From: a virus
Length of the DNA stretch: 26,156 bases
Reading direction: 5' to 3' (one strand)
IMG/VR virus record: IMGVR_UViG_3300046559_000174
Span: 1-26,156 of that record
Shown: piece by piece, positions 1,560 through 22,473 of the stretch
Position numbering within the stretch: the first letter of the stretch is position 1
Layout: each line of letters begins with the position of its first letter
The notes under the pieces: generated by a model
The model's database searches: none
What the model was told of the DNA's origin: nothing
The model's input: only the letters and a program-made list of their open reading frames with translations
Position numbers and translations under genes: made by a program

Positions 1560-1840
1560 TTCGCCAGAATCTCCCCGTGCATCGCCATGTTCTGCTTAAC
1601 CAGCGCCGCGATGGTCGCGATGTCCAGCCCCGGCGTAATCCCCGCGCTCATTTCCTTGCCCGTGGCCGGGTCTGTGCAGGTCGCCGTCACCGGCTGCATC
1701 TGAGGGATTAGCCCCGCGCTGTAGTTGACGACCGTGGTCCCGCAGGTGAGCGAGATTGACGACGTGCCGGAGATGCTGCCGATGCTGAGGCCGGCGCAGC
1801 CCGCCAGCGGCAGGAGCAATAGAAGCGCTAGGTATTTCAT
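1556..1840 (-). CDS. small phage lipoprotein
   Basis: The start at 1838-1840 is chosen because GAGG lies just upstream and because the protein then opens with a clean lipoprotein signal: MKYLALLLLLPLAGC, with lipobox LAGC and the lipidated Cys at residue 15. The 80-residue mature part contains two further cysteines (SLTCGTT and TATCTDP), which could pair. Lipobox proteins are processed by signal peptidase II and anchored in the envelope; Ala rather than Asp at +2 suggests the outer membrane in enterobacterial rules. Known phage lipoproteins include Rz1 spanins and receptor-blocking exclusion proteins. This one lacks the proline richness of Rz1, so its role is open. Confidence 0.75.
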   Translation of the reverse strand: MKYLALLLLLPLAGCAGLSIGSISGTSSISLTCGTTVVNYSAGLIPQMQPVTATCTDPATGKEMSAGITPGLDIATIAALVKQNMAMHGEILAK

Positions 1841-1850
1841 CCCCACCTCG

Positions 1851-2009
1851 TTAAATGTCCGCATCGGTATCGTGATCTAAAATTCGCTGGTAATCACGCT
1901 CAGCCCATTCATCCCACGCCTTACGACAAACGGGACAGAGCGAACCGCTATGGTGCATGAGGAGTTGCTTGAGAAGTATATACTCCTCGCGCATTTTCTC
2001 ATGCGTCAT
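1851..2009 (-). CDS. 52-residue CxxC protein
   Basis: I place the start at the ATG at 2007-2009 (MTHEKMREEYILLKQ), which has GAGG five bases upstream and overlaps the preceding small gene by 11 nt. A longer open frame exists upstream but would cover that gene entirely. The protein is charged and helical with one CPVC motif at about residues 25-28, followed by an acidic, aromatic tail (AWDEWAERDYQRIL). A single CxxC suggests metal binding, perhaps as a dimer. Function unknown. Confidence 0.6.
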   Translation of the reverse strand: MTHEKMREEYILLKQLLMHHSGSLCPVCRKAWDEWAERDYQRILDHDTDADI

Positions 2010-2148
2010 CCCACCCACCCTCATCAAACATCCGTCGCGTTTCCCCACAACGGCGACAATAAACGCCATATTGAAGACCGTGCGTTACTCTCATCTGAGC
2101 CGCATAGGCTTCTCTATGGCCGAGAATGCGACAGAGCAAGGCCCTCAC
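1999..2148 (-). CDS. 49-residue zinc-type microprotein
   Basis: This gene is short and starts with GTG, overlapping the stop of the preceding gene as GTGA, with GAGG just upstream. The product begins MRALLCRILGHREAYA and has a second metal-type site YCRRCGETRR at about residues 30-39. A Cys/His pair (C6 and H11) followed by CxxC about 20 residues later is a pattern I associate with small phage zinc-finger-like proteins. It ends in an acidic tail (FDEGGWDDA). It probably binds zinc; partner and role are unknown. Confidence 0.6.
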   Translation of the reverse strand: MRALLCRILGHREAYAAQMRVTHGLQYGVYCRRCGETRRMFDEGGWDDA

Positions 2149-2315
2149 TGCCACCTCTTTTCATCGGCCAGCTTCTCAAACGTCTCGGGGTTGTCGCCGA
2201 GCAGCACAACCGCCGCTTCCATGATCCGGCGCACCGAGATTAGCGGCACATTACCGCAGTCTTCGGGCAAGCACCGCTGGTAAACGTCCTGCACTTGCTG
2301 GTCGGTGAAATCCAT
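2145..2315 (-). CDS. 56-residue hypothetical protein
   Basis: The ATG at 2313-2315 forms a TGATG overlap with the stop of the RlpA-like gene; a GTG five codons upstream is possible but less likely. The product starts MDFTDQQVQDVYQRCLPE and is predicted mainly helical, with no membrane segment and two cysteines (residues 15 and 20). I recognise no family. Its position between an RlpA-like protein and tiny zinc proteins gives no clear functional hint. Confidence 0.6.
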   Translation of the reverse strand: MDFTDQQVQDVYQRCLPEDCGNVPLISVRRIMEAAVVLLGDNPETFEKLADEKRWQ

Positions 2316-2680
2316 CAAATGAACTCCCACGAGACCATGCCGTTATCCGTCATGCCGAGTTGCTTCCAGACGTACTCGCCGAGGTCGATGCCCGCGCCAT
2401 TGGTCGTGCGCCCTCGAGTATCGGTTCCCGACTCGGCCTGCGGTCGGTCGCCATCAAAGACGTAGCCGTCGTCGTCGTCGTTCCACGGGCCCACGTCCAA
2501 CACGATAGCCGTACAAGACCCAAGCAGATCGCCGTTACGGCTATACCGATAGACGTGCAGAAACTTGTGCAACGCTTTCACCGACGGCAGGGCGACATAT
2601 GGCACCACCGCGTCAACGATATAGCCAGAAGCGGTCTTGCCGCCAATGAGGCCTTCGCGGGTCGCTTTAACCGTGATCAT
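2315..2680 (-). CDS. RlpA-like double-psi beta-barrel protein, candidate lysis enzyme
   Basis: This 121-residue protein matches the pattern of the RlpA/expansin double-psi beta-barrel fold. Visible features are TASGY at 17-21, a VALPSVKALHKFLHVY stretch (29-44) like the family's segment before the active site, LDVGPWN at 61-67 where RlpA has D-R-G-P-F, GAGIDL at 95-100 where RlpA has I-D-L-S, and LGMTDNGMVSWEF at 108-120 corresponding to the LG...G...V ending. RlpA proteins bind or cleave denuded peptidoglycan as lytic transglycosylases. No signal peptide is present. It sits directly downstream of two small membrane genes, one holin-like, so it could be the endolysin or a helper. The start overlaps the upstream stop as ATGA. 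Confidence 0.6.
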   Translation of the reverse strand: MITVKATREGLIGGKTASGYIVDAVVPYVALPSVKALHKFLHVYRYSRNGDLLGSCTAIVLDVGPWNDDDDGYVFDGDRPQAESGTDTRGRTTNGAGIDLGEYVWKQLGMTDNGMVSWEFI

Positions 2681-3021
2681 TTCTCCACCACTTGCACGTC
2701 GAGCGTCGCCGCTGCGGGGCCAGGTATCGTCTGCGTCTCCTCGGCGACTTTCGTTACCAGCTTATTCTCGCTGCCGTCGGCGTGGAAAGACGCGCTACCT
2801 GGCGAGTGTGGATAAATCGCCAACAGGTAGGAGAGCCCGCCAAAGCCGCCGATCCCCAGCGCATCTTTGAACGAGCCCACCGTCAGGTTCATCAGGTTGC
2901 CGTGCGAGGTCGCAGCGAGGGTCGCGAGCGTGGCGCCGCCGAAGGTAATCATCGTCGGCATCACGAAATACTGGATGAAGTAGGATTGCTGGAGGGTGCG
3001 GAGCTTCGGGGAGAGGTTCAT
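2677..3021 (-). CDS. membrane-associated hypothetical protein
   Basis: The ATG at 3019-3021 overlaps the stop of the holin-like gene as ATGA; an in-frame ATG at 3234 would give 185 residues but would cover that hydrophobic gene completely. The 114-residue product begins MNLSPKLRTLQQSYFIQYF and has a hydrophobic stretch at about 20-44 (VMPTMITFGGATLATLAATS) and a weaker one near 60-75 (GFGGLSYLLAIYP). The C-terminal half is polar. This looks like a two-segment membrane protein of a lysis or envelope module, but no family is recognised. Confidence 0.6.
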   Translation of the reverse strand: MNLSPKLRTLQQSYFIQYFVMPTMITFGGATLATLAATSHGNLMNLTVGSFKDALGIGGFGGLSYLLAIYPHSPGSASFHADGSENKLVTKVAEETQTIPGPAAATLDVQVVEK

Positions 3022-3224
3022 CGCGGCCCGAAGTTTAGCCCGAAGCTCCCATGCCCAGAGCCGCCCAAAAACCCACAGCAGTTCAAGAACGCAATAAGCA
3101 CGAGCAACCCGATTAGCAGCCGAATGAGCATATAGACGGGCGGCGGCAAGGCTATGAAAGGGGCGAGCACCGTCTCCAGAATGTAGAGGACGATTATCGC
3201 GATAATCACCCACACAATGAGCAT
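3018..3224 (-). CDS. holin-like two-segment membrane protein
   Basis: The 68-residue product is extremely hydrophobic. The first segment covers about residues 2-25 (LIVWVIIAIIVLYILETVLA) and the second about 31-52 (MLIRLLIGLLVLIAFLNCCG), with a Pro-rich turn between them and a short glycine-rich tail ending in Arg. Size and topology fit a class II holin, which would form inner-membrane lesions at lysis. Small uncharacterised membrane proteins can look the same. The start is uncertain: the ATG at 3224 has no Shine-Dalgarno at normal distance, while a strong AAGGAG lies 26 nt upstream and 8 nt from an in-frame ATT codon. Confidence 0.55.
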   Translation of the reverse strand: MLIVWVIIAIIVLYILETVLAPFIALPPPVYMLIRLLIGLLVLIAFLNCCGFLGGSGHGSFGLNFGPR

Positions 3225-3250
3225 TACTAAGCATTCTAAAATGGTGGTCT

Positions 3251-3256
3251 CTCCTT
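3251..3256 (-). promoter_or_regulatory. strong Shine-Dalgarno (AAGGAG) with unusual spacing
   Basis: AAGGAG overlaps the stop codon of the upstream gene (TAAAGGAG). The nearest ATG in the holin-like frame is 26 nt away, far beyond the usual spacing. An in-frame ATT at 3240-3242 lies at the ideal spacing of 8 nt and would add six residues (ILECLV) to the holin-like protein. Confidence 0.5.
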
Positions 3257-3546
3257 TAGCAGCCTTCGCACGGCTTCCCGTCTTTATCGAACCATTTGTA
3301 AATGGGCACGCGCCTGTCGGTGTCGAAGGTGACTTGGACTCGCATCCGCTTGTGGCTGTGCCCGTGGGCCGTCATCGTCGCGGTGGGCGTCGGCGGCTCC
3401 TCGACCCATTCCGCCTTCACCGGCGCGAGGTCGAAGCCCTTGCAACTCTGGCAGCCCGCCATCACGCAGGTCAGCCGGCGCCCTTCGTGGAACAGAGCCC
3501 GGTGCCCGCAAGTGCAGAATGCGTCCTGTGCTATCGGTTCGCCCAT
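3256..3546 (-). CDS. zinc-motif protein (C-x-C-G-H type)
   Basis: This protein has 96 residues. Residues 11-38 hold a compact metal-binding pattern: CTCGH at 11-15, a second His at 20, then Cys at 27, 32 and 35 followed by KGF. This C-x-CGH...H...C...C..C..F arrangement is one I associate with small phage zinc proteins. The C-terminal half is polar, contains an HGHSHKRMR patch and ends CEGC. It is probably a small zinc-binding protein; no function can be assigned. The start is the ATG at 3544-3546. Confidence 0.6.
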   Translation of the reverse strand: MGEPIAQDAFCTCGHRALFHEGRRLTCVMAGCQSCKGFDLAPVKAEWVEEPPTPTATMTAHGHSHKRMRVQVTFDTDRRVPIYKWFDKDGKPCEGC

Positions 3547-3608
3547 GTCAGCCCGTTCCGCAAATGGTAAAGCATCCAGCTAACCTGACTCGCCTGTGCT
3601 GCTGTCAT
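3531..3608 (-). CDS. possible 25-residue micro-ORF
   Basis: The ATG overlaps the preceding gene's stop as ATGA, the same junction used through the operon, and the frame fills the 58-nt gap before the next gene. The product is MTAAQASQVSWMLYHLRNGL plus five residues. The Q...V..ML..LRNG pattern resembles the first helix of small phage helix-turn-helix proteins, but the frame ends just where the second helix would start. It could be a remnant or a chance frame. Confidence 0.3.
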   Translation of the reverse strand: MTAAQASQVSWMLYHLRNGLTWANR

Positions 3609-3802
3609 TGTTGCGTATCCACTTTCCGCAATATCTCGACTTGGCGCTTAATTGACGGCTCCGCGTCGCCACACTGTCCGCAGAATGCATTGATTGCCGA
3701 CACTTTACCACAACTTTCGCAAGTCCAAAAAGTCTTGGCCTTCGCCGCTTTCGCTTCTATGTCGCGATTAAGGCTAAGCGCAAATTCTCGCCAATCATTC
3801 AT
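3605..3802 (-). CDS. 65-residue zinc-ribbon protein
   Basis: The start at 3800-3802 gives an ATGA overlap with the upstream stop; a longer frame begins within that gene and is unlikely. The N-terminal half (MNDWREFALSLNRDIEAK and onward) is helical and charged. The C-terminal half holds a four-cysteine ribbon: CESC at 28-31 and CGQC at 41-44, ten residues apart, a standard zinc-ribbon spacing. It may contact nucleic acid or protein; the target is unknown. Confidence 0.65.
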   Translation of the reverse strand: MNDWREFALSLNRDIEAKAAKAKTFWTCESCGKVSAINAFCGQCGDAEPSIKRQVEILRKVDTQQ

Positions 3803-4449
3803 CCACAAACTCCGTCCCCATTCCACGCGCCCGTGTCGCCGATGTAAATCCAGGGCCAACCAGGGCACTTGCTATCCGCATAGTACGTGTACGAACCCGC
3901 CGGTAGAACTGGCGCAGGCTTGCCCTTGATGACAACCGTACAGTCGCCCACGTCGCTAAACCAGAAGCGCACCCACTTGCCGCGCTCGCCGGTGTGGATA
4001 ATCGGTATCAGTTGGCAGTCCGTGTCGGGAATCTGCCATGCCGGATGGAGCCCCGCGCCCTGTGGATAGCCGTAGCCGCTGTCGAGGTTCCGGCAGTTTG
4101 CGGGCGACCAGCCTTGCTCGGAGCACGCCAGCGGATGCGAGTAGAAGGCGGAGCCGAGGTTATCGCGGCAGACGTTGAGATGGATAAACGGCCCGACGAG
4201 GCAGGCCTGTCCGCCTTGGCGCGGCGTGAGGTTGTAGTAGAAGGCTTTCTTGACGTGCCCGCCACCGCTGGTTACGGCAGCGGGCCTCGCCTTATAAAAT
4301 CTGGCAATTGCAGATTTATGGTGATCACCCCCTTGCGTGCAGGCGTGGCCGAGGCCGTAGAGCAAGGCCCACACGGCAATGACGGCGACGAGGCCGAGCC
4401 ATAGCCGTCCGTCGCGCCGCCGCCTCGTGCCGTATTCGTAGGGTTGCAA
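3799..4449 (-). CDS. membrane-anchored Cys-rich extracytoplasmic protein with TTG start
   Basis: The frame begins with TTG at 4447-4449, directly after the TAA stop of the preceding gene and in the same frame. No other plausible start lies before the membrane segment. The 216-residue product has a basic N-terminus (YGTRRRRDGR), one transmembrane helix at about 17-33 (LWLGLVAVIAVWALLYG) and a long polar domain with nine cysteines, rich in Gly, Trp and Tyr. The arginines ahead of the helix favour an N-in topology with the domain in the periplasm, where disulfides could form. No enzyme motif recognised. Its last bases overlap the zinc-ribbon gene as ATGA. Confidence 0.65.
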   Translation of the reverse strand: MQPYEYGTRRRRDGRLWLGLVAVIAVWALLYGLGHACTQGGDHHKSAIARFYKARPAAVTSGGGHVKKAFYYNLTPRQGGQACLVGPFIHLNVCRDNLGSAFYSHPLACSEQGWSPANCRNLDSGYGYPQGAGLHPAWQIPDTDCQLIPIIHTGERGKWVRFWFSDVGDCTVVIKGKPAPVLPAGSYTYYADSKCPGWPWIYIGDTGAWNGDGVCG

Positions 4450-5157: not shown

Positions 5158-5364
5158 TTACCGCCAAGTACCGTTAGCATGGAACACCAGACACATAGTT
5201 AGCACGATCCCAAAGCATCCGATGGCCGCTCCCAGCCCCCCAAGTATCAGATATGCTACCACGCCCGATTGCGTGCGTGCCTTTTTAGCGTGCTGCGCCA
5301 TCACCGTCACGAACAGAAATCCAAAGCAGAACATCAGCGCAGCGGCTATTTCGACGTTGTGCAT
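5158..5364 (-). CDS. holin-like protein, two transmembrane segments
   Basis: The ATG at 5362-5364 overlaps the preceding stop as TGATG. The product has 68 residues: first hydrophobic helix at about 6-23 (IAAALMFCFGFLFVTVMA), a basic loop (QHAKKARTQSG) and a second helix at about 38-60 (YLILGGLGAAIGCFGIVLTM), with a short tail ending in Arg. This is the size and hairpin topology of a class II holin. A second holin-like gene lies at 3018-3224, so one may be an antiholin or an unrelated membrane protein. About 93 nt without a convincing gene follow before the next start. Confidence 0.55.
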   Translation of the reverse strand: MHNVEIAAALMFCFGFLFVTVMAQHAKKARTQSGVVAYLILGGLGAAIGCFGIVLTMCLVFHANGTWR

Positions 5365-7409
5365 CAGAACGGCCACCCTCCATTCGTCGGCGGCAGAGGT
5401 GCCGGTGCAAGGCTGAAAATCGTTTCGCTATCATATTGGAGCCGCACTGCCGCGCTGGTCTGCGTCGGGGCGCTCACGGATTGCAACCCCTCGGTCGCTG
5501 ACGCCCACGGGCCACCGCAACTGCCAACTACCTGCGCCGTCGTAGCAAAGTCGATAGGCATAAAGAATGCCGCGAGCTTGTTGCCCAGCGTGACCGCCGG
5601 AGCAATCTGCTCCCCCTGTGTCGCGAGCGTCGGCGAGCATCCCGAATAGGCCATGAAGCTGAGAGCGAGGTCGTCGCTGGCGGTCGGGGCTTGTATCGCC
5701 GCGGTCATGTCGTTAGCCAGCCCTTCGTTCTTGAGCGTGCCGCTCGAATCAACCGGCGTCGTCGTGTTGAGATTGCCCACGTCCACGATGAGGGCATCCG
5801 CCGTCGATTGGCTGGCCGAGAAATGGAATTGCTCCAGCACGTTTGCCGGTAGACCATGAGCCGAGTACGTATCGAGTTGAACGCTGTTGCTCTCGTTGGC
5901 CAATGCCGAGGTTTGGTGCGTCCACGGAGATGCTGCGGCGGTGTTCGTCTTGAGCGCTACGTGACAATAAAGCCACGTCTGAGCGCTCCCTGGCGTCGTG
6001 TATGCTTGCGCACCCGTCGAGCCATGCGCGCCCTGCTGATAAAGTCCCCCCGCCGCCGCCGAGCCGTTGTTCTGCCATAACACTATATTCGCCGCTGGAG
6101 GGACTGGGGTGGTCGCCGATGCTTGTCCAAATAGAAATGAATAAATCGTGTCGTTGTCGGTCCCCGTGGTAATCGCTGGAACGCTGGGGTTTGCGGTGGA
6201 TGCGATCGACCCGCAAGTCGCTGTATCTTTGGAGATCGTCGCCCCGCTGTTCGAGGCAAAATCCGCAATCCCTTGATTTACGCCGCCGCTCGACCCCGTG
6301 AAGGTGTAGGAATGGCTGATGTCGCACGAATCAATTATCTTGCCGAACGCGCCGATAAACGAGCCCGAGGTCGCAAGGCTTTGCCACGCATCCGAGCCGC
6401 ACGCAGCAGGCGCCGACATTACTGCCCCATTCCCGAAAGCGACGGTGAAGAAATCGTTGACAACGGTCGCTGAACTTATGGTGAAGGTCTGATTACCCGT
6501 GCCCGTGACATAGGTCGGCGCGTAACGTTGCACGATGTCGGGCGGTGCCGTGATCGTCGCCCCTGGAGTTAGCTCAGCAATCCCCGCGATATGCACATCC
6601 CCCGAATGCACATTGGCCGCGAGCGTCGGCGGACTCACGGTCGTACTTGAACTGACGGCGGTATCAGCGCCCGCGCCGACTAGCACTTCGCCCGCGCTCG
6701 TTGCCTCGATATCCGCTGCGAAGCACGCGATGTCATAGATGGCTCCGCCCACGTGCTGAGAGGCTTGCGTCATCACTGCCGCGCCGCTCGTCCCGCTCCA
6801 GCCGAGGAATCCCGAAGTCTCCACTCCCGAAGTGGCCGTCGAAGGAAATGGCGTATTATCGAACGTGGGATTGCCGCCTCCGCCAAAGGCGCACGACTCA
6901 AAGACGAGATCGCCGTTCTGCGCTGGCGTGATTGCACCAGGGGTACAAGATGCCGCGTTCGCGCCGCATTTCCCCGTGATATTGGTCGAGGCGACCGTGA
7001 TGCCGCCATTGTCCGACGGCGTGATTATCCACGGCGTCACCGTCGCCGAATTGTTATTCGTCCAGCTCACCGAGATGGTCGAGCCCGGATCGCCCGCAAT
7101 CAGGGTCTTCTTGAACACTGCGACGACGGTTTTGTTCTGCGTCTCGGTCGTCCCAACTTGGCACGACACGCAAAGTGTCCCGTTGACGGTGAAGGTCGGA
7201 CTGGTCGCCGCAGACGCCCCGCCGTAAATGCTGGTATGCACCCAGAGTATTTGCCCGACCTGTGCGCTCGCTGGCACTGTCACGGTTGCGCACGAGGTCT
7301 TGTTGCCGCCGCCGCAGGTCTGATAAATCCCAAGGAAATACGAGAGCGACGCCGCCTGAGCCGTCAGCGGAGCCAACATGAAGGCGAGCAGAAAGAATAG
7401 CCGCCTCAT
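5364..7409 (-). CDS. large exported multidomain beta-rich protein of the fibre locus
   Basis: The start at 7407-7409 (ATGA overlap) gives 681 residues and a clear Sec signal: MRRLFFLLAFMLAPLTAQA, with basic n-region, Leu/Phe core and AQA cleavage motif. The mature part is rich in Ser/Thr/Gly/Ala, with about three copies of a weakly similar sandwich-type unit whose hallmark is 'GQIL/GDLV/GDVH' followed by a TxTxP loop (near residues 50, 155 and 275). It has 14 cysteines, many in close pairs (CVSC; CGANAASC), suggesting disulfides. Its C-terminus is GGWPF. It is the last gene of the fibre-locus run. A host-facing or surface-exposed role is inferred; no family is recognised. Confidence 0.75.
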   Translation of the reverse strand: MRRLFFLLAFMLAPLTAQAASLSYFLGIYQTCGGGNKTSCATVTVPASAQVGQILWVHTSIYGGASAATSPTFTVNGTLCVSCQVGTTETQNKTVVAVFKKTLIAGDPGSTISVSWTNNNSATVTPWIITPSDNGGITVASTNITGKCGANAASCTPGAITPAQNGDLVFESCAFGGGGNPTFDNTPFPSTATSGVETSGFLGWSGTSGAAVMTQASQHVGGAIYDIACFAADIEATSAGEVLVGAGADTAVSSSTTVSPPTLAANVHSGDVHIAGIAELTPGATITAPPDIVQRYAPTYVTGTGNQTFTISSATVVNDFFTVAFGNGAVMSAPAACGSDAWQSLATSGSFIGAFGKIIDSCDISHSYTFTGSSGGVNQGIADFASNSGATISKDTATCGSIASTANPSVPAITTGTDNDTIYSFLFGQASATTPVPPAANIVLWQNNGSAAAGGLYQQGAHGSTGAQAYTTPGSAQTWLYCHVALKTNTAAASPWTHQTSALANESNSVQLDTYSAHGLPANVLEQFHFSASQSTADALIVDVGNLNTTTPVDSSGTLKNEGLANDMTAAIQAPTASDDLALSFMAYSGCSPTLATQGEQIAPAVTLGNKLAAFFMPIDFATTAQVVGSCGGPWASATEGLQSVSAPTQTSAAVRLQYDSETIFSLAPAPLPPTNGGWPF

Positions 7410-8644
7410 CGAATCACCGTCGCGGTAACGTGGCTCGCGTTCGCGGAGCTGCCCCACGCGCTACTTGTCGATGGATCGGTGGGCGAGACGCACCCTATTT
7501 GTTGATAAGTCCCGATTTGCAGATTGTTGGCGATATAAGTCCCCAAGGTGTCGCCGCCGAGACTGTAGCCGTTGCCCCACGGGCACTGGTAATTCGTTCC
7601 ACTGATATTCCAGCCGAGTTGGGCGATGCGCGTTCCTGGCGCGGTCTTCTCGACGCTCGCCCGCTGTGTGACGAACAGGATATTCGAGAAGGTGCCGAGG
7701 TTCATGTTGTAGATGTCGTAAGCGCCTGCGGTCGCGTCGGCGTTATAGCTTGCGCTGCCGGGTGTCGCCGCCGCCGCGTTCTGCCAGTTGGCGTTCGCGT
7801 TGGGCGTGAAGTCGATATGGGAACCATTGCCGATCGGCTGCGCAGTCGCGCCGTACATCGTCCCCAGCGCACTCGCGGGACAAGCCGCGCCGGAATCATA
7901 GACGGCCCATAGTCCCTGCCTCAAAGAACCGCCACCGCCAAGCTCATAGTCAGGCACAGTAACGCCGTTGCCACCGCCTATATTTGGCGCGCTAGTGCCC
8001 GGCGTGGCATTGTTGACGTATTGAGTACCGTCCAGCCACGCCGATTCTTTCGAGGGAACCGTGCCGCTCCCATTCGTTCCCGAGATATAGCACCATTCGT
8101 TCTGATGGAAACTGCCATCAGTCGGTAGCGCTACGCTCTTCGATCCGCTTCCTGTCACGTCACTGAAAATCTTGTTGTCGGTGCCGATTTCCTGCGCCGC
8201 ATAGTCGATGCAGCCGCGATAGACGCCCGTTGTCGCCTGATGCGTGCAATCGTTCAGCCGATTAATAAAGACGTTCGATGTGATGTTTCCAGTGAGCGCG
8301 ATTAACTGGACGATGCCGATCGCGCGGTGCGGCTGGTTGAGCTTGACGAAAATCCCTTGCCCCGGATTCGGCGCACCGCCGCCCGCGCACGTCGCTCCGT
8401 TGGTCGCCTCCACATAGTAGTCGAGACTGACGCTATTCGGGTCCCATATCGGCGCACTTATCAAAGCCGTCTGGAAGCAGTTCGGAAAGTTGACGATGTA
8501 CGGGTAGAGGAAATCCGTCCCGCTAATCGGGTTAGCAGCGCCATAGCCGTTATAGCTGCCGCCCGCGATCCACGTCCGCGTCTGTGCCAGTGCCGGCGTT
8601 ACCCACAGGCAAAGCGCGATGAGAATGGGCGCTATGCGGTTCAT
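7406..8644 (-). CDS. exported Cys-rich protein of the fibre locus
   Basis: The ATG at 8642-8644 makes a TGATG overlap with the upstream stop; the GTG one codon earlier is less likely. The 412-residue product starts MNRIAPILIALCLWVTPALA, a signal peptide with ALA cleavage site. The mature chain has eight cysteines and is rich in Gly, Asn, Ala and aromatic residues. A segment near 185-210 (HQNEWCYISG ... AWLDGTQYVNN) faintly resembles the 'W..I....DG..Y' pattern of concanavalin-like lectin domains, which is weak evidence. No catalytic motif seen. Its place behind a fibre attachment gene suggests a surface-binding role (inference). Confidence 0.7.
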   Translation of the reverse strand: MNRIAPILIALCLWVTPALAQTRTWIAGGSYNGYGAANPISGTDFLYPYIVNFPNCFQTALISAPIWDPNSVSLDYYVEATNGATCAGGGAPNPGQGIFVKLNQPHRAIGIVQLIALTGNITSNVFINRLNDCTHQATTGVYRGCIDYAAQEIGTDNKIFSDVTGSGSKSVALPTDGSFHQNEWCYISGTNGSGTVPSKESAWLDGTQYVNNATPGTSAPNIGGGNGVTVPDYELGGGGSLRQGLWAVYDSGAACPASALGTMYGATAQPIGNGSHIDFTPNANANWQNAAAATPGSASYNADATAGAYDIYNMNLGTFSNILFVTQRASVEKTAPGTRIAQLGWNISGTNYQCPWGNGYSLGGDTLGTYIANNLQIGTYQQIGCVSPTDPSTSSAWGSSANASHVTATVIR

Positions 8645-9825
8645 CACGATCCAAACGTCGGACAGCTAGGCACCTGAAGTTGTGGTGTAGCCGGCCCGGT
8701 ATGATATTCAAGCGCAAACAAAATGCAGCTCCCTGCCGAGGTCGGCATCGTTGGCTGCGCGGCACATCCCCCCGTTGTTGCGAAAGTGACCGCCGTCCCA
8801 CTGCCAGCGGCAAGCGCCGCGAAAGTGAAAGGCCCGCCGCCTATTGGATTCGGCTGGCACACCCAGAAATGGTCGCTCCAGCCGCTCACGGGCGCTGCCG
8901 TCGAGGCAAAGGTGGTCGTTGTGTTATTCCCGCTCAGGGTGAGCACATGACACTCGCTAACCGGATGCGTCTTGTTCTTCGGGGTCAGGGTCGAAGTCGT
9001 GGTGCCCGATACCACCGTGCAATCGGGGAAAGCGGGGGCGACCGTCGCGTCGATAGTGTTCTTGTTGGCCTTGCCGGTAACGTCGCCTGCGAGATTGTTG
9101 CCGTTGCCGCCGCCCGTTCCCTGCGCTGCGGCGATCTGAATGTACGTCAGCGGGTCGGTGCCGATCGTCGTCACTGGTAGCTGCTCAAGCCAGAGCGTCC
9201 CCACCAGCGTTCCGCCAGCCGCCACAGGCACAGCCCCAACCGAATCGATATTCGCCGCCGTGTTGTAGTCGGTCGCCCGCGTGAGTACCCAAGGGTTGCT
9301 GCCATCTCCCGCCGCGGTTACAAGATAGACGCCGTTTTGAAAGGTGCTCACTTGATTCTTGACGAGTACGCGATTGTTGAGCACCGCGACGGTGCCATCG
9401 ACCGTCAGCGTTCCATTGCCGGTGCGAGTGAGCGTCGCGCCAACGCCCGCAGTGCCGTTGTTGTAAGTCGGCGTGTTCGGCAAGATGGCGATCGTCGCAA
9501 GGTCCACTGAGGCCAGCGGATTAAGTGCCGCCAAGGCTTGCTGAACGAATAGAGTAGTCGGAATCTTTGTGCTGGAGTCACCCGAGGTCGGCGTCGTGCC
9601 GATGGCTCCGCTCTGCACAGAGACTACTTGGCCGGTGAGCACGCCCCCACTCTGCGAAGTTCCCGAGCCGAAGTCGCCAGCGCCGCTGGTGATGGTCGTG
9701 CCGCCCCCACCGCCGCCGGCTCCCGCCCCACCACCGAATCCGGCGCCGCTGTTATTCCCCGCAGCGGAGGCGACTAAGGGCATCGCCAAGGCCAACATGA
9801 GGAGGATTGAGACAAGTCGTTTCAT
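8644..9825 (-). CDS. exported tail-fibre-like protein with fibre repeat domain
   Basis: This 393-residue protein opens with a signal peptide, MKRLVSILLMLALAMPLVAS, cleaved after an A-S-A motif, then a Gly-rich start AGNNSGAGFGGG. Residues about 105-235 carry a unit well known from phage tail-fibre and tail proteins: TLTVDGTVAVLNNRVLVKNQ, STFQNGVYLV, WVLTRATDYNTAANI, then VPVAAGGTLVGTLWLEQ and IGTDPLTYIQI. The remaining C-terminal part is beta-rich with six cysteines in the mature chain. A fibre module behind a secretion signal is unusual, because fibres normally assemble on virions in the cytoplasm. The start overlaps the preceding stop as TAATG. Confidence 0.8.
   Translation of the reverse strand: MKRLVSILLMLALAMPLVASAAGNNSGAGFGGGAGAGGGGGGTTITSGAGDFGSGTSQSGGVLTGQVVSVQSGAIGTTPTSGDSSTKIPTTLFVQQALAALNPLASVDLATIAILPNTPTYNNGTAGVGATLTRTGNGTLTVDGTVAVLNNRVLVKNQVSTFQNGVYLVTAAGDGSNPWVLTRATDYNTAANIDSVGAVPVAAGGTLVGTLWLEQLPVTTIGTDPLTYIQIAAAQGTGGGNGNNLAGDVTGKANKNTIDATVAPAFPDCTVVSGTTTSTLTPKNKTHPVSECHVLTLSGNNTTTTFASTAAPVSGWSDHFWVCQPNPIGGGPFTFAALAAGSGTAVTFATTGGCAAQPTMPTSAGSCILFALEYHTGPATPQLQVPSCPTFGS
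9734..9766 (-). repeat. copy A of a 33-bp repeat encoding AGNNSG-x-GFG
   Basis: This 33-bp segment at the start of the 393-residue protein matches 10963-10995 at 29 of 33 positions when read side by side. It encodes the mature N-terminus just after the predicted signal cleavage site. Confidence 0.75.
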
Positions 9826-11051
9826 TATCCATGAACCTCAACCGAGCACTTAGCTTCGAGGGCCGTCGGCGTCCCGCTTGGGACTGCCGTGTAATAAAGA
9901 ATGTCGTTCGCCGCGATACTGACCGCATCGCCTGCTGTGGTGTCTGAGCAAGTCGATTGCGCGGTCGTAATCGTGCAAGTCTGCGCGGTGGTTGAAGCAT
10001 TCTTATTCAACGTCAGAACGTAGCTCGTCCCGCCCGCCGCCGTAACCGTGCCGTTCGACGCCATCAGGACGCAATGAAGATTGGCCACGATATAGGAGCC
10101 GGAGGAGATCGTCATCACGTTTCCGTTGGTCGCGACCGATGCCGCTGGCGAGAGACCATTTACCAGAAAATATGACGTGGCCGAGTTGGATAGCGTGGCA
10201 TTCGTGCCGCCGAGCCACACCCATTTCAGCGAGCCGACCGTTACCGTGCCAGTGTTATCGACGGTCCATTTACTGACTCCGTTAATCTTTTCATCTTGAA
10301 GGGGAGCCGTCTGCCCCGACGGGCCGTTAGCCTGAAACTCTGTCGTTCCGGTATCGGTCGGCTGGCTAAAAAACTGCGCCTTGGTGCTAATCGCGCTGAC
10401 GGCTACTCCATTCTGATACCCGACGAAGGGATTCCCCGTCGAGGTGTTAGCCATGAATACGTTGATGCCATCCTGCGCGATTTGGGACGGCGAGAGAATG
10501 ATGCTGCCCGCCCTGATAAATTCCGTTCCGTTGCCAGTCGTCCCCTGCACATAGAAGCTGGTCGGCGAATTGGCCGCATCCGCGAGATTGCACCCCGTCC
10601 CGCTGACAACCGCGCACGTCGCGACCAAGACGCTTTGTGCCCCCGTCGGCACGGAATTGGCCGTGTAACGAAGCAGGTAGAGATGGGTCGCGCCGGTCTC
10701 ACCTGGACAGGACATCGTTCCGGTCTGCGCCGTGGTTCCTGTGGCCGACGAGAGCGGTGTTATCCCCATCCCATTAGTGGTATTCGCGTTGATGTCGCCC
10801 GCCGCACAGTAATAAAAGGCCGTCGAGCCGCCAGTGAATCCGCTGACGATCGTCGGCGCAGCAGGAACCGTCACTGGCGAGACGAGAATCGAGCCGTTGG
10901 AAGTAATACCGCCGTTAGGGGCAAGCCCCGATGACCCTCCGGGGGCTCCGCCGCTACCCGAACCGAATCCCGACCCGCTATTATTCCCCGCAGCGAACGC
11001 CGCGGATGCGCTGAGTAGCAAGAGAGTGCAAAGGATTCGCAGGACCTTCAT
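9825..11051 (-). CDS. exported protein with C-terminal beta-sandwich head
   Basis: I chose the ATG at 11049-11051, which gives the ATGA overlap; a GTG two codons upstream is also open. The 408-residue product has a signal peptide (MKVLRILCTLLLLSASAAFA) followed by AGNNSGSGFGSGSGG, nearly the same mature N-terminus as the next gene's product. The middle is Ser/Thr/Gly-rich. The last 90 residues (SYVLTLNKNAS, CTITTAQSTCSDTTAGDAVS, AANDILYYTAVPSGTPTALE) look like the beta-sandwich head domains seen on phage fibres and spore-surface collagen-like proteins. There are eight cysteines in the mature part. A fibre-tip or surface adhesin role is inferred. Confidence 0.75.
   Translation of the reverse strand: MKVLRILCTLLLLSASAAFAAGNNSGSGFGSGSGGAPGGSSGLAPNGGITSNGSILVSPVTVPAAPTIVSGFTGGSTAFYYCAAGDINANTTNGMGITPLSSATGTTAQTGTMSCPGETGATHLYLLRYTANSVPTGAQSVLVATCAVVSGTGCNLADAANSPTSFYVQGTTGNGTEFIRAGSIILSPSQIAQDGINVFMANTSTGNPFVGYQNGVAVSAISTKAQFFSQPTDTGTTEFQANGPSGQTAPLQDEKINGVSKWTVDNTGTVTVGSLKWVWLGGTNATLSNSATSYFLVNGLSPAASVATNGNVMTISSGSYIVANLHCVLMASNGTVTAAGGTSYVLTLNKNASTTAQTCTITTAQSTCSDTTAGDAVSIAANDILYYTAVPSGTPTALEAKCSVEVHG
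10963..10995 (-). repeat. copy B of the 33-bp repeat encoding AGNNSG-x-GFG
   Basis: Partner of 9734-9766 (29 of 33 identical). It encodes the same mature N-terminal sequence in the preceding gene of the operon, while the signal peptides and the rest of the two proteins differ much more. Confidence 0.75.
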
Positions 11052-11524
11052 TTCCACGCTATCCCGAAGAAGCAGTCACCGCCGGAAGTGGTGTCCACGG
11101 TCAGTTTTTTGCCCGTTGTCGAGCACGCGCAAGTCAGCCCCGACACCAGCCCGACGCCCTCGTTAGGCAACGAAAAGCTACACGTCGAGGGCTGCGCTGC
11201 TGCCGTCGCAGTCGCCAGTGAGCATTGCGAGAGCAGCGCCGCGACTGACGCCGCCGAACCGTCCGCTGGCAGCGTCGCTGAGTCGAAGCACATCGCTACC
11301 AGTGCGGCACTCGTGTTGTAGCTGACTGCGGAAAGCATCATAAATCGGCGCGAGCTGGACGGCGACGAATTGACGACGATGACGGAGTTCTCCATGCCGG
11401 TCGTCGAAGCATTCGCCCCGTTCGCGTCCTTGTTGCCGGTATGGTAGTAGCCGATGGCCTGCGCTCGCGCGAACGACGGAATAAGGAGCGCCGCCAACAT
11501 CACCCAGAGTATTCGTGCCTTCAT
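11048..11524 (-). CDS. small exported Cys-rich protein
   Basis: Of three in-frame ATGs, the one at 11522-11524 is preferred: AAGGAG lies exactly 6 nt upstream and the product then opens with a clean signal peptide, MKARILWVMLAALLIPSFARA, ending in ARA. The product has 158 residues and six cysteines in the mature part. The mature chain is Ser/Ala/Thr-rich with a beta pattern (MENSVIVVNSSPSSSRRFMM ... LTVDTTSGGDCFFGIAW), resembling a short single sandwich domain. No family recognised. It lies between the collagen-like gene and the 408-residue gene, consistent with one exported set. Confidence 0.7.
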   Translation of the reverse strand: MKARILWVMLAALLIPSFARAQAIGYYHTGNKDANGANASTTGMENSVIVVNSSPSSSRRFMMLSAVSYNTSAALVAMCFDSATLPADGSAASVAALLSQCSLATATAAAQPSTCSFSLPNEGVGLVSGLTCACSTTGKKLTVDTTSGGDCFFGIAWK

Positions 11525-11530
11525 CTCCAT

Positions 11531-11536
11531 CTCCTT
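11531..11536 (-). promoter_or_regulatory. Shine-Dalgarno AAGGAG deciding a start
   Basis: AAGGAG overlaps the TAA stop of the collagen-like gene. The first following ATG touches it directly, while the second (11522-11524) has the optimal 6-nt spacing, so translation of the 158-residue exported protein most likely begins there. Confidence 0.7.
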
Positions 11537-12323
11537 AGTCCGTGGTAAATTCAAAGCCTACGCCGACGTTCGTCGCGAAGGGACTGCAAGTTCCCGCCGA
11601 GGTGCCGACGCGCAATTCGATAACATCGCCCGCGACCACTGCGAGCGCCTGGTCCGTATGCCCCGTGGCCGCGCTATTGGCGAGAGTCAGGCTGCTCCCG
11701 ACTGGCGAGCCATTCTGGTAGAGCACCAGCACCGGCGGCGTCCCGCAGACTCCCGCCGTCTGAGCGTCGTAATAGGTTCTCACGATATGGATATTCACGC
11801 GCGGGATAAGCGTGACGAGGAACGCCTGCGTCGAGAGCCCGCCGAAGGTCGGAACGAATCCCGTCCCTGCCGCGTGGGCAGCCGGCCCTGTGGCTCCGGT
11901 TGGCCCCGTGGCCCCGGTCGGCCCCGTTGGGCCAGTCGGGCCGGTTGCTCCCGTTGGTCCGGCTGGCCCGGTAGCGCCTGTCGGTCCGGTTGGCCCTGTT
12001 GCACCGCCCGCCGGCCCAGTTGCTCCGGTAGCTCCGGTCGGCCCCGGTACCGCAGCGCCCGCGCCGCAATTCCACACGCCCGCGATGCGCTGTGCCCACG
12101 CCCCACTGCCACCGCCCGCACACACGACGGCCAGCTTACAATCGAGGCAATAGCCCTCGGTGCCGTTCTCTTGCGGAATCGTCAGGGTCAGATTGGCGAA
12201 GGTGGTCGGGCGAAACGTGATCGACCGATAAGTGGGAACCGGCGTCGGAGCCGCAGCCACGAATAAGAGCATCGCGACAATCGCGGATGCCACGGTCAGA
12301 ATTGGGCCTTGATATTTCTTCAT
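11535..12323 (-). CDS. exported collagen-like protein with beta-sandwich head
   Basis: The 262-residue product begins [20 protein letters not shown] followed by FVAAA, a signal peptide or signal anchor. Residues about 94-148 are a collagen-like stretch of 18 G-x-y triplets made only of GPT, GAT and GPA, with one extra Gly after the fourth triplet. The C-terminal 110 residues form a probable beta-sandwich head ([20 protein letters not shown] ... [13 protein letters not shown] ... VGVGFEF), as in trimeric collagen-stalk proteins. Six cysteines: four before and two after the stalk. Collagen-like stalks in phage fibres make rigid trimers. Here the signal sequence suggests export. The start overlaps the fibre-adaptor stop as ATGA. 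Confidence 0.8.
11880..12044 (-). repeat. collagen-like triplet repeat (18 Gly-x-y units)
   Basis: A 9-nt-periodic GC-rich tract encodes (GPT/GAT/GPA)n, interrupted once by an additional Gly codon between triplets four and five. Such tracts can change length by slippage or recombination. Confidence 0.85.
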
Positions 12324-12709
12324 CGTGTGACACTCGCCGCTAGTTCCTGAATTACCAACATCATCCGATCCAGTGATGCCTCCAGCGCTCCTGCCGAAAA
12401 TGGGTCTTGCGGGTTAAACACGGCGAGTTGGGTCGGCGCGGTCTTGCGCGTAATCGTAATCGTCCCGCCCGTCACCGGAGCCACACCGAAATTCACCATG
12501 CCGCCGTTATTGTAGGTGTTGAGCTTATCGTCGAGCGTCCCTGAGACCGTGTAGTCGGAGTTGAAGGTCTTTACCGTCACGACACCGCTTGCGTCGGTGT
12601 ACTCCACCACGAGGTCAGCCTGCGCGTAGAAGTAGCTCGGGAAGGCGAACGCCGTGCTCATCCCATCCGTCGAGTAGGCGAATTGGACTACCTGATCGCT
12701 GACGCTCAT
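12320..12709 (-). CDS. short tail-fibre attachment (T7 gp17 N-terminal-like) protein
   Basis: The 129-residue protein reads like the N-terminal virion-attachment domain of podovirus tail fibres. Visible pattern: [20 protein letters not shown] at the start, then [22 protein letters not shown], a [20 protein letters not shown] strand pair, [20 protein letters not shown] and a C-terminal helix [20 protein letters not shown]. In T7-like phages this domain joins the fibre to the tail and is fused to the shaft. Here it ends straight after the helix, so the shaft and tip must come from other proteins, plausibly those encoded just downstream. Both ends overlap neighbours as ATGA. Confidence 0.8.
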
Positions 12710-14238
12710 CGTTCCACCTCGAAGGGGTTGCGGTCGTAGCCGTCCGCGAACTTCGTCCGCTTCTGCGTTAGCTCAGGGGCCGCCCGTAGTGCCGTGCGCT
12801 GCTCGCCCGCCCCCAGAAGCATATATTGAGCCGCTTCCGCCACATGGCTGAACATATCCTTGACCGGCAGATCGTGATAGCGCTCCTGTCCTGTTACCTG
12901 TACGCGCTTGTAATGGTAGCCGCCCGCGAGCGCCTTGCGGAGCTTCTGGCAGTTGGGATGGATGAGCATCCCAGGCTCGCCATCGACCATCTTGTTCAGG
13001 AAATAGGCGAAGGTCTCGCGACGTTTGGTCGGGTCGTTCGTCGCTGCCGGACGCGCGGCAATACCAGCCGCCCGCAGCACCTCGAAGGGCGTTCCCTTGT
13101 CGGTCTGCGCTCGCGTGTCGCCAGCGGGGTCGCCGGTTATGGACGCGATCTTGTAGTCCGCGAACTCCCCACGGAGCGTTTGCCCGAGGAGATTACCAAA
13201 TTCAAGGGCGCCCATATCCTCGGTGACGATTTCTTTATATACACGCCACGCACCCATGATCGTCCGTTGAGCGATAGTTGCCGCCGGCGTGAGCCCAAAG
13301 TCGATGCCAACGTAGATCGGCAGATTGCGGTTAAGCGCAAACTCCCGGCAGTGCATTCCGTCGCGATACTCGGGATAGACGGGCTTCCCGTCGAGGACGA
13401 ACCCATACTCACCGTCAACATAGACCTTGATCCATTCGTTCGATTTGCCAGCACTTAGGCGCTCGTAATAGCCGGGAGTGAGGTTCTTTATATTCTCCGC
13501 GTTCGGGGCGCGTCCGCCCGGTTGCGCGTAGAAGCGCTGGAGCGACTGGTCTTTGCGGAGCGTGCCCATCTCGCGCAACCTATCGGCAATCTCCTCGTTC
13601 TTTATTGTCATTTCGGGGTCGGCGAAGTCAGCCATCTTCGCCCACCAATGGTCGGTATCGGGCGAGTTGGTATCCATGATGATTTGCGGGGCCGCGCAGC
13701 CATGAGTGACGTTGCCCTTGGGTCCGCGTACCGTGCGTGGGAAGCGCCCAACGCGGCCCGTGAGCCCGTCAAGGATGACCTTGGGGAGTTCGCGCGCTTC
13801 GTTGATCCACGCATCGCTCAATTCGAGCGACAGCAGGTGCCGAAGGTCGTCCGGCTGGTCGAGGGCGAGGAAGATGATTTCCCAATCGACCTTGGGGTTA
13901 TCCGTCTGGATGCGATGCATCGGTGGTCCCTTCTCGCGCCAGCGTCCCACGTTCGGCGGCACCCATTGCTGCCACGTCTTAATGGTCGTGGTCGTGAGTT
14001 CGGGATAGGTATTGCGGATAATCGCGGTGCGACGCCTGACGACGCCATCTGGCCCAGGCCGCTGAAGCGTGAAGTTTCGGAGAAGTTTCGCGATGCAGGC
14101 GGTCGATTTGCCGGAGCCGAAGGGACCGCGGATACCGCAGAGCAGCGCATCGTCCGCCACGAAGGCACGCGAGACCGGCCCCGGCGGATTCCAGGTGAAG
14201 TTGATCGGCTGCTCGACTTGCTTGACGGTGGTTTTCAT
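12706..14238 (-). CDS. terL: terminase large subunit
   Basis: This is the DNA-packaging motor: an ATPase that pumps DNA into the prohead and a nuclease that cuts it. In the 510 residues, Walker A is GPFGSGKST at 38-46 and the Walker B region is ELSDAWINEARE at about 139-150 with the catalytic acidic residue near E147. A coupling-type motif DTNSP is at 189-193. The nuclease domain shows IYVGIDFGLTP (Asp at 313), ITGDPAGD (Asp at 370) and KDMFSHVAEA (Asp at 461), the three acidic positions expected of the RNase H fold. Length is typical. No small terminase subunit is visible in the window. The start overlaps the gp16-like stop as ATGA. Confidence 0.92.
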   Translation of the reverse strand: MKTTVKQVEQPINFTWNPPGPVSRAFVADDALLCGIRGPFGSGKSTACIAKLLRNFTLQRPGPDGVVRRRTAIIRNTYPELTTTTIKTWQQWVPPNVGRWREKGPPMHRIQTDNPKVDWEIIFLALDQPDDLRHLLSLELSDAWINEARELPKVILDGLTGRVGRFPRTVRGPKGNVTHGCAAPQIIMDTNSPDTDHWWAKMADFADPEMTIKNEEIADRLREMGTLRKDQSLQRFYAQPGGRAPNAENIKNLTPGYYERLSAGKSNEWIKVYVDGEYGFVLDGKPVYPEYRDGMHCREFALNRNLPIYVGIDFGLTPAATIAQRTIMGAWRVYKEIVTEDMGALEFGNLLGQTLRGEFADYKIASITGDPAGDTRAQTDKGTPFEVLRAAGIAARPAATNDPTKRRETFAYFLNKMVDGEPGMLIHPNCQKLRKALAGGYHYKRVQVTGQERYHDLPVKDMFSHVAEAAQYMLLGAGEQRTALRAAPELTQKRTKFADGYDRNPFEVER

Positions 14239-20076: not shown

Positions 20077-20492
20077 CAGCTAATCCTCGCGTACAGGCCC
20101 GCATCGTGACCTTGGTAGAAGTTGTGCATAATGCCTTCGAGGCCGAAGCCGAGAATCTTCGTCACCCAGCGATGGCCTTTCACGTTGCCCCTGCTCACCG
20201 TTGTTTCGATGCGCGGGATGCGCGATTCGATAAACCACGCCCGCATGGCCTTGTTGAGACTCAGAAAATGTCGCGACGCGAGCTTCGGATCGGTGAGCGC
20301 CCAGCAGCGATAAGTATATTCGTTGATCGGGTAGAGTCCGACGCACGCAGCGACGCCCTCATCAACCAGGCCAGCAAAGGCGGGACCGCCGTCGATGGTC
20401 TTCTGGATGTAGGCCAAGGCTTCCTGCGCCTCTTCCACGCCCTGCGCGGCCAGGGTCTCGACGTGCGCTCGCGTTAGTTGCTCAATCTTCAC
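20076..20492 (-). CDS. gp13-like / GNAT-fold small virion-associated protein
   Basis: The 138-residue product starts at a GTG that overlaps the previous gene by 11 nt (MKIEQLTRAHVETLAAQGVE). The centre has acetyltransferase-like traits: VGLYPINEYTYRCWALTDPK, then a strand and helix near ETTVSRGNVKGHRWVTKILG and FGLEGIMHNFYQGHDAGLYA, which resembles the end of a GNAT domain. Small proteins of this type are frequent between nozzle and internal virion genes in T7-like phages, where T7 gp13 sits. Catalytic activity is doubtful and was not established from sequence; a role in virion assembly is more likely. Confidence 0.68.
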   Translation of the reverse strand: MKIEQLTRAHVETLAAQGVEEAQEALAYIQKTIDGGPAFAGLVDEGVAACVGLYPINEYTYRCWALTDPKLASRHFLSLNKAMRAWFIESRIPRIETTVSRGNVKGHRWVTKILGFGLEGIMHNFYQGHDAGLYARIS

Positions 20493-22473
20493 TGTCTAAG
20501 TTGGGATAGATTCCCACCACCGTCATCGGGTACGGCTCGTCGTTAAGCATCGTTATGCGACCTTCGACTTCGTAACCCGCAGGGAAATTGAACGCATAGG
20601 TCTCCTCCGGCCAGAGGCCGTTATAGACCGTGAGCGCCTGACTCATCGGGTCGTCGGGGTCGCGCATCTCCACATTGTCGAAAATACTTTCGGGCGGGTC
20701 GCTCAATTCTTTATCGGGATCTTCTCTGCCAATCTTGCCGCCAAGCGTATTCTGAAAGCGCACAGTGAGGTCGGTTATGCGCTTGACCTTGCCCGCCGCG
20801 GAGCCTGTGGTCGCCCCCGCCTCAATCGGCATCGTCGTGAGACGCGCGAGCTGCGGGAGTCCGATTTGCACTATCTTGGCCGGCCACTGAAGCGAGATTT
20901 GACCGCCCGTCACGACGCAATCTGGATGCAACGCGCCATCCGTCAACACCTTCACGGTCTGGCCTTCGAGGTAGCCGAGGCCGGTAATCGTCTGCGTCGC
21001 CGCGCCGTTGTAGGTCGTCCCCGAGTCCGAATAGAAGGCGTCGGTCGCGAGGTCGTCCCCGGTCACGAAATGCGGCGCCATATATTCGACGTACTGCTTG
21101 GTGACGCCGTTGATGGAGCGCTGGACAATCATCCAGAGGTCGTCCTGCGACTTCGAGGGATTCGGGATGCAGGCGATGGCCCTCACCCCACCAACCATCG
21201 GATGGCGATGCCATGCTGTCACGCCCTGCTCCTCGTTGAAGGTGAAGCCGATAAGGTCGCCAGCAGGAGTCGGAGTAGTCGCGAACGGTATGATCTGCTG
21301 GAAATGGCCGCCGAGATGCTGATTCGTCAGGGTCACGCCACCGTCGGCAGAATAGGCGTTCGTGAGCACGTCGAGCGCGTTGGTGTTCCGCAATCCAATG
21401 CCGATGCCGATATCGTCGGGCGCTCCGATGATCGCGAAGATGGTCGCGCTCATAAACGATGGAACTTCGGGCAACACCGGAATCGTTGCGCCCCAGCCCT
21501 TGCCGTCGCTGCTGGCCGCAATCAGCGCCTCCTGTGATAGCGGGCTAGTCGCCGTGACCCGCGTGCCGACCATGTAAAGCAGACCGCCGACTTCGGTGAT
21601 GGCAACGAAATCGTCGGCTGGCACCGCCGGCGGATCGGCGGCTGAGGTATAGCCGTAAGTCCACGCTTGGTCGGGCGCAGGCGACCAGACAATGCCGTTG
21701 TGCGGATCGGCGGACGCGCCGCCCTTGTTCGCGATTCCTACCCATAGATTCAATCGCGACGAATACCAGAGTGGAGACGGAAAACTGACCATATGCGGAT
21801 AGTTCGCGGGGAACACTTGATCTATCCAGGTAATTCCGTCGGTCGATTTGAATACCTTTGTCGTGCCGATTACCCAGAGAGTAGTTCCGTCGTCATAAAT
21901 CTGAGAATAAAAGCTATCGACGGCATTCCGATTCGTCCAAGTCGCGCCGCCCGCCGGCGAAGTCCATATTTTGTCGCCGACCGCGATCCAGAGATTCAGC
22001 CGGGGAATCCATTTCAGCGCCTGAATCGCGTCGAAACTATTAGACGCTTCAACGATAACTGGCGCCCATGAGGTCTTGGGCGAAGTAGAAGTAAAGACCG
22101 CAGGGTTTCCATTAAGATCGAGCGCGCCGATTGCATAAGTCGTCCCATCGAAGTCGATGGCTTGTGGGCCGGTCTGCGGCTGTCGGTTGCCGCCCTGCCC
22201 GCCAATGAAGGTGGTGCCATCGTTGAGATTGACCGGCATCGCCCAAGTGCCATCCCACACGGCAATCACGGCTGGCGATACGAAATTCGTAGAGATGATG
22301 ATCTTGCCATCGTAGTAGAGGTCACCGCCGTAGCTGGGGACAGCAGCAGCCAGCGCAAGCGCCCCCAGACCGACCACGGCGGCGTAGGTTTTCAGGTCGA
22401 TGGTCATCCAAATCGGCTCCGCTGGCGGCGTCGTCGAGATATTGTTGAGGATATAGGTCGTCGTGCCAGCCAT
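20482..22473 (-). CDS. second nozzle gene: Asp-box beta-propeller plus C-terminal tail tubular protein B domain
   Basis: The 663-residue protein has two parts. Residues about 50-400 form a probable beta-propeller with Asp-box (BNR) motifs: SPAGGATW (172-179), STDGITW (210-216), SSDGKGW (321-327) and SADGGVTL (375-382). From about 405 it becomes the C-terminal part of tail tubular protein B: GDLIGFTFNEEQGVTAWHRH, then DDLWMIVQRSINGVTKQYVE, YLEGQTVKVLTDGALHPD and WPAKIVQIGLPQLARLTTMP. In one-gene nozzles this would follow directly the last residues of the neighbouring 606-residue protein. The propeller could bind host glycans; no sialidase catalytic set was identified. The start is fused to the upstream stop as TGATG. 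Confidence 0.82.
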   Translation of the reverse strand: MAGTTTYILNNISTTPPAEPIWMTIDLKTYAAVVGLGALALAAAVPSYGGDLYYDGKIIISTNFVSPAVIAVWDGTWAMPVNLNDGTTFIGGQGGNRQPQTGPQAIDFDGTTYAIGALDLNGNPAVFTSTSPKTSWAPVIVEASNSFDAIQALKWIPRLNLWIAVGDKIWTSPAGGATWTNRNAVDSFYSQIYDDGTTLWVIGTTKVFKSTDGITWIDQVFPANYPHMVSFPSPLWYSSRLNLWVGIANKGGASADPHNGIVWSPAPDQAWTYGYTSAADPPAVPADDFVAITEVGGLLYMVGTRVTATSPLSQEALIAASSDGKGWGATIPVLPEVPSFMSATIFAIIGAPDDIGIGIGLRNTNALDVLTNAYSADGGVTLTNQHLGGHFQQIIPFATTPTPAGDLIGFTFNEEQGVTAWHRHPMVGGVRAIACIPNPSKSQDDLWMIVQRSINGVTKQYVEYMAPHFVTGDDLATDAFYSDSGTTYNGAATQTITGLGYLEGQTVKVLTDGALHPDCVVTGGQISLQWPAKIVQIGLPQLARLTTMPIEAGATTGSAAGKVKRITDLTVRFQNTLGGKIGREDPDKELSDPPESIFDNVEMRDPDDPMSQALTVYNGLWPEETYAFNFPAGYEVEGRITMLNDEPYPMTVVGIYPNLDSED

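Follow-up and report, generated by a model that had tools for sequence, protein, structure and literature searches.

Fibres of tailed phages are generally taken to be assembled in the cytoplasm, and the question posed by virus record IMGVR_UViG_3300046559_000174 (the window; 26,156 bases, analysed whole) is why six consecutive genes of its fibre locus should open with what look like Sec-type export signals, and where their products might end up. These genes, g6 to g1 in reading order, follow a gene for a short adaptor of the T7 gp17 type, and the locus combines the predicted signals with modular mature starts, cysteines that are enriched and even in number, fibre-type modules, and an adaptor that has no shaft of its own. 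Export and oxidative folding of the post-adaptor proteins are well supported by these sequences; that at least g6 would then dock on the adaptor of virions released at lysis is the reading we prefer, tentatively, at a probability of about 0.45. The features concerned are these:

12706-14238, minus strand: large terminase gene, at the end of the structural block and directly before the adaptor
12320-12709, minus strand: orphan adaptor, 129 amino acids (aa), like the T7 gp17 N-terminal domain; no signal peptide, no shaft
11535-12323, minus strand: g6, signal peptide or signal anchor, 4-Cys domain, collagen-like shaft and C-terminal knob; 6 Cys
12252-12323, minus strand: predicted signal peptide of g6, 24 aa
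12057-12227, minus strand: 4-Cys domain of g6, YCxDC...C.GGGSGA.A...G.W.C
11880-12047, minus strand: collagen-like Gly-x-y shaft of g6 (Pfam Collagen, E=2.6e-6; phage tail-fibre PHROGs to E=3e-17)
11048-11530, minus strand: g5, signal peptide and 137 aa mature protein with 6 conserved Cys
11462-11530, minus strand: predicted signal peptide of g5, 23 aa, divergent from that of the relative L006
9825-11051, minus strand: g4, signal peptide, mature N-terminus AGNNSGSGFGSG and body; 8 Cys
10992-11051, minus strand: predicted signal peptide of g4, 20 aa
8644-9825, minus strand: g3, signal peptide, mature N-terminus AGNNSGAGFGGG and tail-fibre-type domain (about residues 122-264); 6 Cys
9763-9825, minus strand: predicted signal peptide of g3, 21 aa
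9727-9762, minus strand: mature N-terminal motif of g3, AGNNSGAGFGGG, common to g4 (10956-10991)
7406-8644, minus strand: g2, signal peptide and 392 aa mature protein with no assigned fold; 8 Cys
8585-8644, minus strand: predicted signal peptide of g2, 20 aa
5364-7409, minus strand: g1, signal peptide and 662 aa mature protein; 14 Cys
7353-7409, minus strand: predicted signal peptide of g1, 19 aa
25472-25933, minus strand: gX, signal peptide and 135 aa mature protein, between head and tail genes; 6 Cys

Signals were scored with a heuristic of our own (positive n-region, uncharged hydrophobic 8-mer, A-x-A-like site), which passes 0.9% of shuffled N-termini and two of 276 reference-phage open reading frames (ORFs) that are 100 aa or longer, both in a lysis region. 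Scoring bore out the first-pass annotation, which had proposed such a signal for all six genes after the adaptor: g1-g6 each begin with a basic n-region, a Leu-rich core (mean Kyte-Doolittle (KD) hydropathy over eight residues, 2.9-3.4) and an A-x-A-type site, and the small ORF gX does likewise. The cleavage site of g6, between VAA and APTP, is the least certain of the six, and its N-terminus may be a signal anchor; none of the six predicted sites has a Cys at +1. Signals are absent from the tail, ejection-type, terminase and adaptor genes of the window. Clade relatives, collected by searches with the large terminase (TerL) and the adaptor, share TerL identities with the window of 92% (L004-L006), 86% (L020), 72-74% (L021, L022, L026) and 69% (L024, L025). 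Contiguous post-adaptor genes carry a signal in 25 of 25 cases across six lineages that have the terminase-adaptor layout in common (window 6, L006 5, L020 4, L021 3, L026 3, L024 4), against 0 of 36 other virion genes tested, with gX, which passes, counted apart; the spike of L025 has a signal as well. The post-adaptor proteins themselves vary from relative to relative, some homologous and some replaced, and the signals remain. As predicted from sequence, the Sec-type signals on the six genes are not a chance occurrence.

How such a signal evolves is seen most clearly in g5. Between the window and L006 the mature protein is identical at 137 of 137 residues, over 25 synonymous and 0 replacement changes, whereas of 20 aligned signal-peptide residues 9 are shared (nonsynonymous rate, dN, 0.51; synonymous rate, dS, 0.49), and from the cleavage-site codons onward the DNA is again closely similar. 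The signal has thus drifted at about the synonymous rate, yet its start is still basic, its core hydrophobic and its A-x-A site in place. The remaining pairs that were compared likewise show a higher dN in the signal than in the mature protein, except in g4, where the signal is conserved. Because the signal changes freely up to the cleavage site, selection appears to act on a generic Sec signal rather than on a specific virion contact, and by this comparison the g5 signals are exchangeable export modules, not virion anchors. The mature start also looks modular in g3 and g4, which have unrelated bodies and share the mature N-terminus AGNNSGxGFGxG (AGNNSG[AS]GFG), much as a docking peptide might be shared. 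Occurrences of AGNNSG in two contigs outside the clade proved to be unrelated stretches with no signal in front.

The cysteines point the same way. A recount after the predicted sites reproduced exactly the numbers given earlier, namely 6 in g6, 6 in g5, 8 in g4, 6 in g3, 8 in g2, 14 in g1 and 6 in gX. Even counts in seven of seven window proteins are by themselves weak evidence (1/128); at the level of the clade, 15 of 17 protein families have an even count (p=0.0012; only the L021_13614 family and the L024 spike depart from this) and 10 of 16 other virion proteins, taken as a control, do so. Cysteine makes up a median of 2.05% of mature exported proteins against 0.42% of other virion proteins (p=4.5e-8), and the L020 counterpart of g5, 68% identical, retains all six of its Cys.

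In every clade member the mature part of the first post-adaptor protein opens with the 4-Cys domain, whether that protein is a collagen fibre or, in L024 and L025, a possible beta-helix spike; the pectate-lyase fold of L024_3584 is a weak profile match only (46 columns, P=0.007, probability 5%). An AlphaFold2 (AF2) model of the domain reached a mean predicted local distance difference test (pLDDT) score of 72.9; its fold searches gave nothing significant (best E 1.6 in PDB, 1.9 in BFVD), though many of the weak viral matches are Mtd-N-terminal, collagen and tail proteins. Outside the clade the domain occurs in 8 of 199 Acidobacteriota genomes and in 0 of 190, 0 of 185 and 0 of 195 genomes of three other groups. 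The Acidobacteriota proteins resemble those of the window in this domain, in their Cys-rich chains and in signal-like N-termini where the locus reaches them; unlike g6, they are chromosomal chains of about 520-560 aa that carry it as their C-terminal domain, and the short stretches read around them showed no phage genes. An acidobacterial host for the window phage is a lead, not a result.

It is because the signals are kept in divergent relatives, because they drift where the mature protein is constrained, because cysteines are both enriched and even in number, and because the 4-Cys domain recurs in signal-bearing Acidobacteriota proteins that we regard export and oxidative folding as well supported. 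Some companions outside the clade carry a signal but contain little or no Cys, so export does not in general serve disulfide formation.

What would bring exported fibres back to the virion is suggested by the adaptor. It matches PHROG_1640 tail protein (E=6e-18) and Pfam Phage_T7_tail (E=0.005, below the cutoff of that family), overlaps g6 by 4 bp, and in all clade members is a separate protein of 129-182 aa. Homologous domains form the N-termini of one-piece fibres and spikes of 401-912 aa in phiV10, SPN1S, HTVC010P, HTVC034P, EXVC032P and several viral contigs, and none of these has a signal-bearing immediate neighbour; counts of layouts across the relatives are not phylogenetically independent. 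The podoviruses of the epsilon15/phiV10/SPN1S and HTVC010P types thus share with the window the adaptor domain and tail tubular protein B, but have adaptor and fibre or spike in a single signal-less chain where the window has them split: its T7/epsilon15-type adaptor domain is a separate gene of 129 aa, and g6-g1 are without it. Intermediate between the two is L080, a Manatee Spring phage in which an adaptor of 305 aa precedes a fibre-like protein of 917 aa that bears a signal and weakly matches BclA_C. Modules typical of trimeric fibre shafts and knobs are present on the exported side, in the collagen of g6 and in the matches of g3 to PHROG_11518 tail fibre (E=7e-7) and PHROG_24595 virion structural protein (E=2e-7). 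A C-terminal stretch of g1 is homologous to the signal-bearing L021_14813 and L026_4591 (E=3e-8 and 1e-11).

The preferred reading, then, is that the fibre has been split in this clade. A short adaptor would be made in the cytoplasm and built into the tail, while the receptor-binding or depolymerase parts are encoded separately, with a cleavable Sec signal in place of a virion-anchoring domain. Late in infection these proteins would be carried across the inner membrane; in the periplasm they would become disulfide-bonded and trimeric, and lysis would free them, whereupon at least the first of them, the 4-Cys protein g6, would dock on the adaptor of released virions; the others may be additional branches of the fibre or accessory binders that stay free. 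For the clade we prefer that at least g6 docks, because otherwise the host would be met only by the 129 aa adaptor or by the nozzle, and post-lysis docking of the first fibre is favoured by the orphan adaptor that every clade member has.

Several points weigh against this reading. No family match was found for g1, g2, g4 or g5, so that calling them fibres rests on their location and neighbouring genes, and the AF2 model of mature g5, built from three sequences, has a mean pLDDT of 35.9. The AGNNSG motif is confined to the window clade. The 4-Cys domain is also C-terminal in the Acidobacteriota proteins and in a Manatee Spring phage protein, and is therefore not one reserved for binding the adaptor. 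In Burkholderiaceae prophage-like regions the signal-bearing companions are found next to complete spikes, which means that export does not require an orphan adaptor.

The strongest alternative is that the proteins are exported and never join virions, acting instead as displayed or shed superinfection-exclusion proteins, as receptor blockers that keep progeny off debris, or as free depolymerases; we consider this a serious possibility, if one that we would still bet against. The first-pass annotation had left both fates open, and of its interpretation the part concerning export and oxidative folding is well supported, while display or shedding and post-lysis joining are not separated by the data. 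The well-supported signals speak for a free role, and exported fibre-like proteins do accompany complete fibres or spikes elsewhere. Burkholderia phage BcepC6B (gp19) and Xanthomonas phage PBR31 (gp35) each encode a protein with a signal peptide directly after the fibre or spike gene. As in the window, a Sec-type signal is followed by fibre-type modules within a fibre locus, ending in a fibre-type C-terminal knob; gp19 and gp35 differ in being single, poor in Cys and placed beside a complete fibre or spike, where the window has six proteins beside an orphan adaptor. No clade protein matched them (mature start ATLxPxQLLNPAGSTSGQ, RARRVR end) in an all-against-all comparison that included gp19. 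Both are annotated only as tail fibre or putative structural protein. The part of the PBR31 paper that was read names a signal peptide only for esterase gp40 (PMC10975493), and in a neural-network study using BcepC6B the only identified structural proteins named are gp16 and gp18 (PMC3426561). The same knob also ends adaptor-anchored fibres of Drulisvirus KpV74 (Klebsiella) and Phimunavirus Peat1 (Pectobacterium), which have an N-terminal domain of their own and no signal.

Homologues of gp19 and gp35 were found in 22 of 300 Burkholderiaceae genomes, almost all of those with intact N-termini carrying a signal; those without one (L125, L131, L138) start with other sequences. The companions have 0-5 Cys, and in the six regions read they adjoin the spike or fibre gene in three (L151, L154, L156) and lie a few genes after it in two (L152, L153). 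For these Burkholderiaceae companions a free role is just as likely. One prophage-like region, L155, has two signal-bearing fibre-like genes (1808-3832 and 7335-8546) among tail-type genes. No published account of signal-bearing fibres was found in the open literature, which is weak evidence, most subscription papers lying outside that scope.

A free role also has precedents in lambda lom and T5 llp, the latter adjoining the receptor-binding gene of T5, and a product of predicted export from a receptor-binding locus is what the window has too. Lambda lom encodes an exported outer-membrane protein from a gene between the tail spike and tail fibre genes (PMC12309495); it resembles the window in being an exported product of the fibre region and differs in being an outer-membrane beta-barrel, encoded by a single gene, with no fibre modules. 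Against a free role, it would leave the clade with an adaptor of 129-182 aa for host recognition, unless adaptor or nozzle serves that purpose, and six separate exclusion proteins would be unusual.

It is improbable that the six are enzymes or binders acting on the envelope, aiding lysis or breaching exopolysaccharide before it. The second post-adaptor protein of L006 and L020 does have a Pro/Thr-rich linker, Pfam Big_7 Ig domains and a C-terminus that looks lysozyme-like by eye, L024 has its possible beta-helix spike, and the operon runs on into membrane genes (5158-5376); on the other side, none of g1-g6 has an enzymatic match in Pfam or NCBIfam, and collagen and tail-fibre domains are not lysis modules. 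The lysozyme-like domain (L006_2787, L020_13268) was not confirmed, with no PDB or Pfam match, and an exported endolysin is likewise set aside, as Pfam and NCBIfam gave no lysin family, and thus no muramidase or amidase domain, in the six.

Very unlikely is the suggestion, raised in the first-pass annotation, that the hydrophobic N-termini are retained as anchors or trimer plugs inside the virion: they do precede fibre-type domains and stand where an anchor would, but 26 of 27 clade signals reach a strict signal threshold, and in g5 the drift at about the synonymous rate keeps signal features and breaks off at the cleavage site. It is equally hard to credit that exported accessory genes of unrelated origin (morons) have collected in the fibre operon: gene content after the first fibre does vary between relatives, but all the genes there bear a signal in the six lineages, both g6 and g3 are of fibre type, and the junctions from adaptor through g6-g1 to the next gene are overlaps of 1-4 bases or spacings of 4 bases, for which reason they look like one translational unit.

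The surroundings are those of a podovirus, with tail tubular proteins A and B, ejection-protein-like genes, terminase and adaptor; terminase, adaptor, g6-g1 and membrane genes follow one another, and all of these genes lie on the minus strand. In BcepC6B the terminase stands at the start of the structural block, in the window at its end, and Burkholderiales TerL relatives (50-56% identity) have a different gene layout. Tail tubular protein B is divided between two adjacent genes (20482-24293), residues 1-270 of PHROG_376 matching the first and 470-711 the second, and the second gene shows, by eye, Asp-box-like repeats of the propeller type in its first half. A further signal or signal-anchor protein (3799-4449; RRRR n-region, eight Cys after it) has an L006 homologue at 47% identity. 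A Mom-like DNA modification protein (205-747) and a DNA methyltransferase (993-1559) suggest modified phage DNA, and the small lipoprotein-like gene at 1556-1840 (MKYLALLLLLPLAGCAG) is possibly an outer-membrane spanin. One part of a 42 kb contig, L003, is near-identical to the window; the stretches of it that were read showed no integrase recognisable by eye, and near the contig end it encodes a protein with a papain-like QGQQGACTGHS motif (L117 17511-18329).

Taken more broadly, and with less than even confidence, receptor-binding fibres may be built outside the cytoplasm in such phages, passing through Sec, being oxidised in the periplasm and joining adaptor-bearing virions at lysis, so that the envelope would time the last assembly step, and exchanges of signal for anchor may have spread knobs through Burkholderiaceae prophages. 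In any case, phage proteins with fibre modules that seem to have gone unremarked would reach the envelope, in this clade, in cultured phages and in many Burkholderiaceae genomes. Either lysis precedes the completion of some virions, or soluble copies of binding domains are routinely released by phages, and either outcome would alter how host range, adsorption and superinfection are read from fibre genes.

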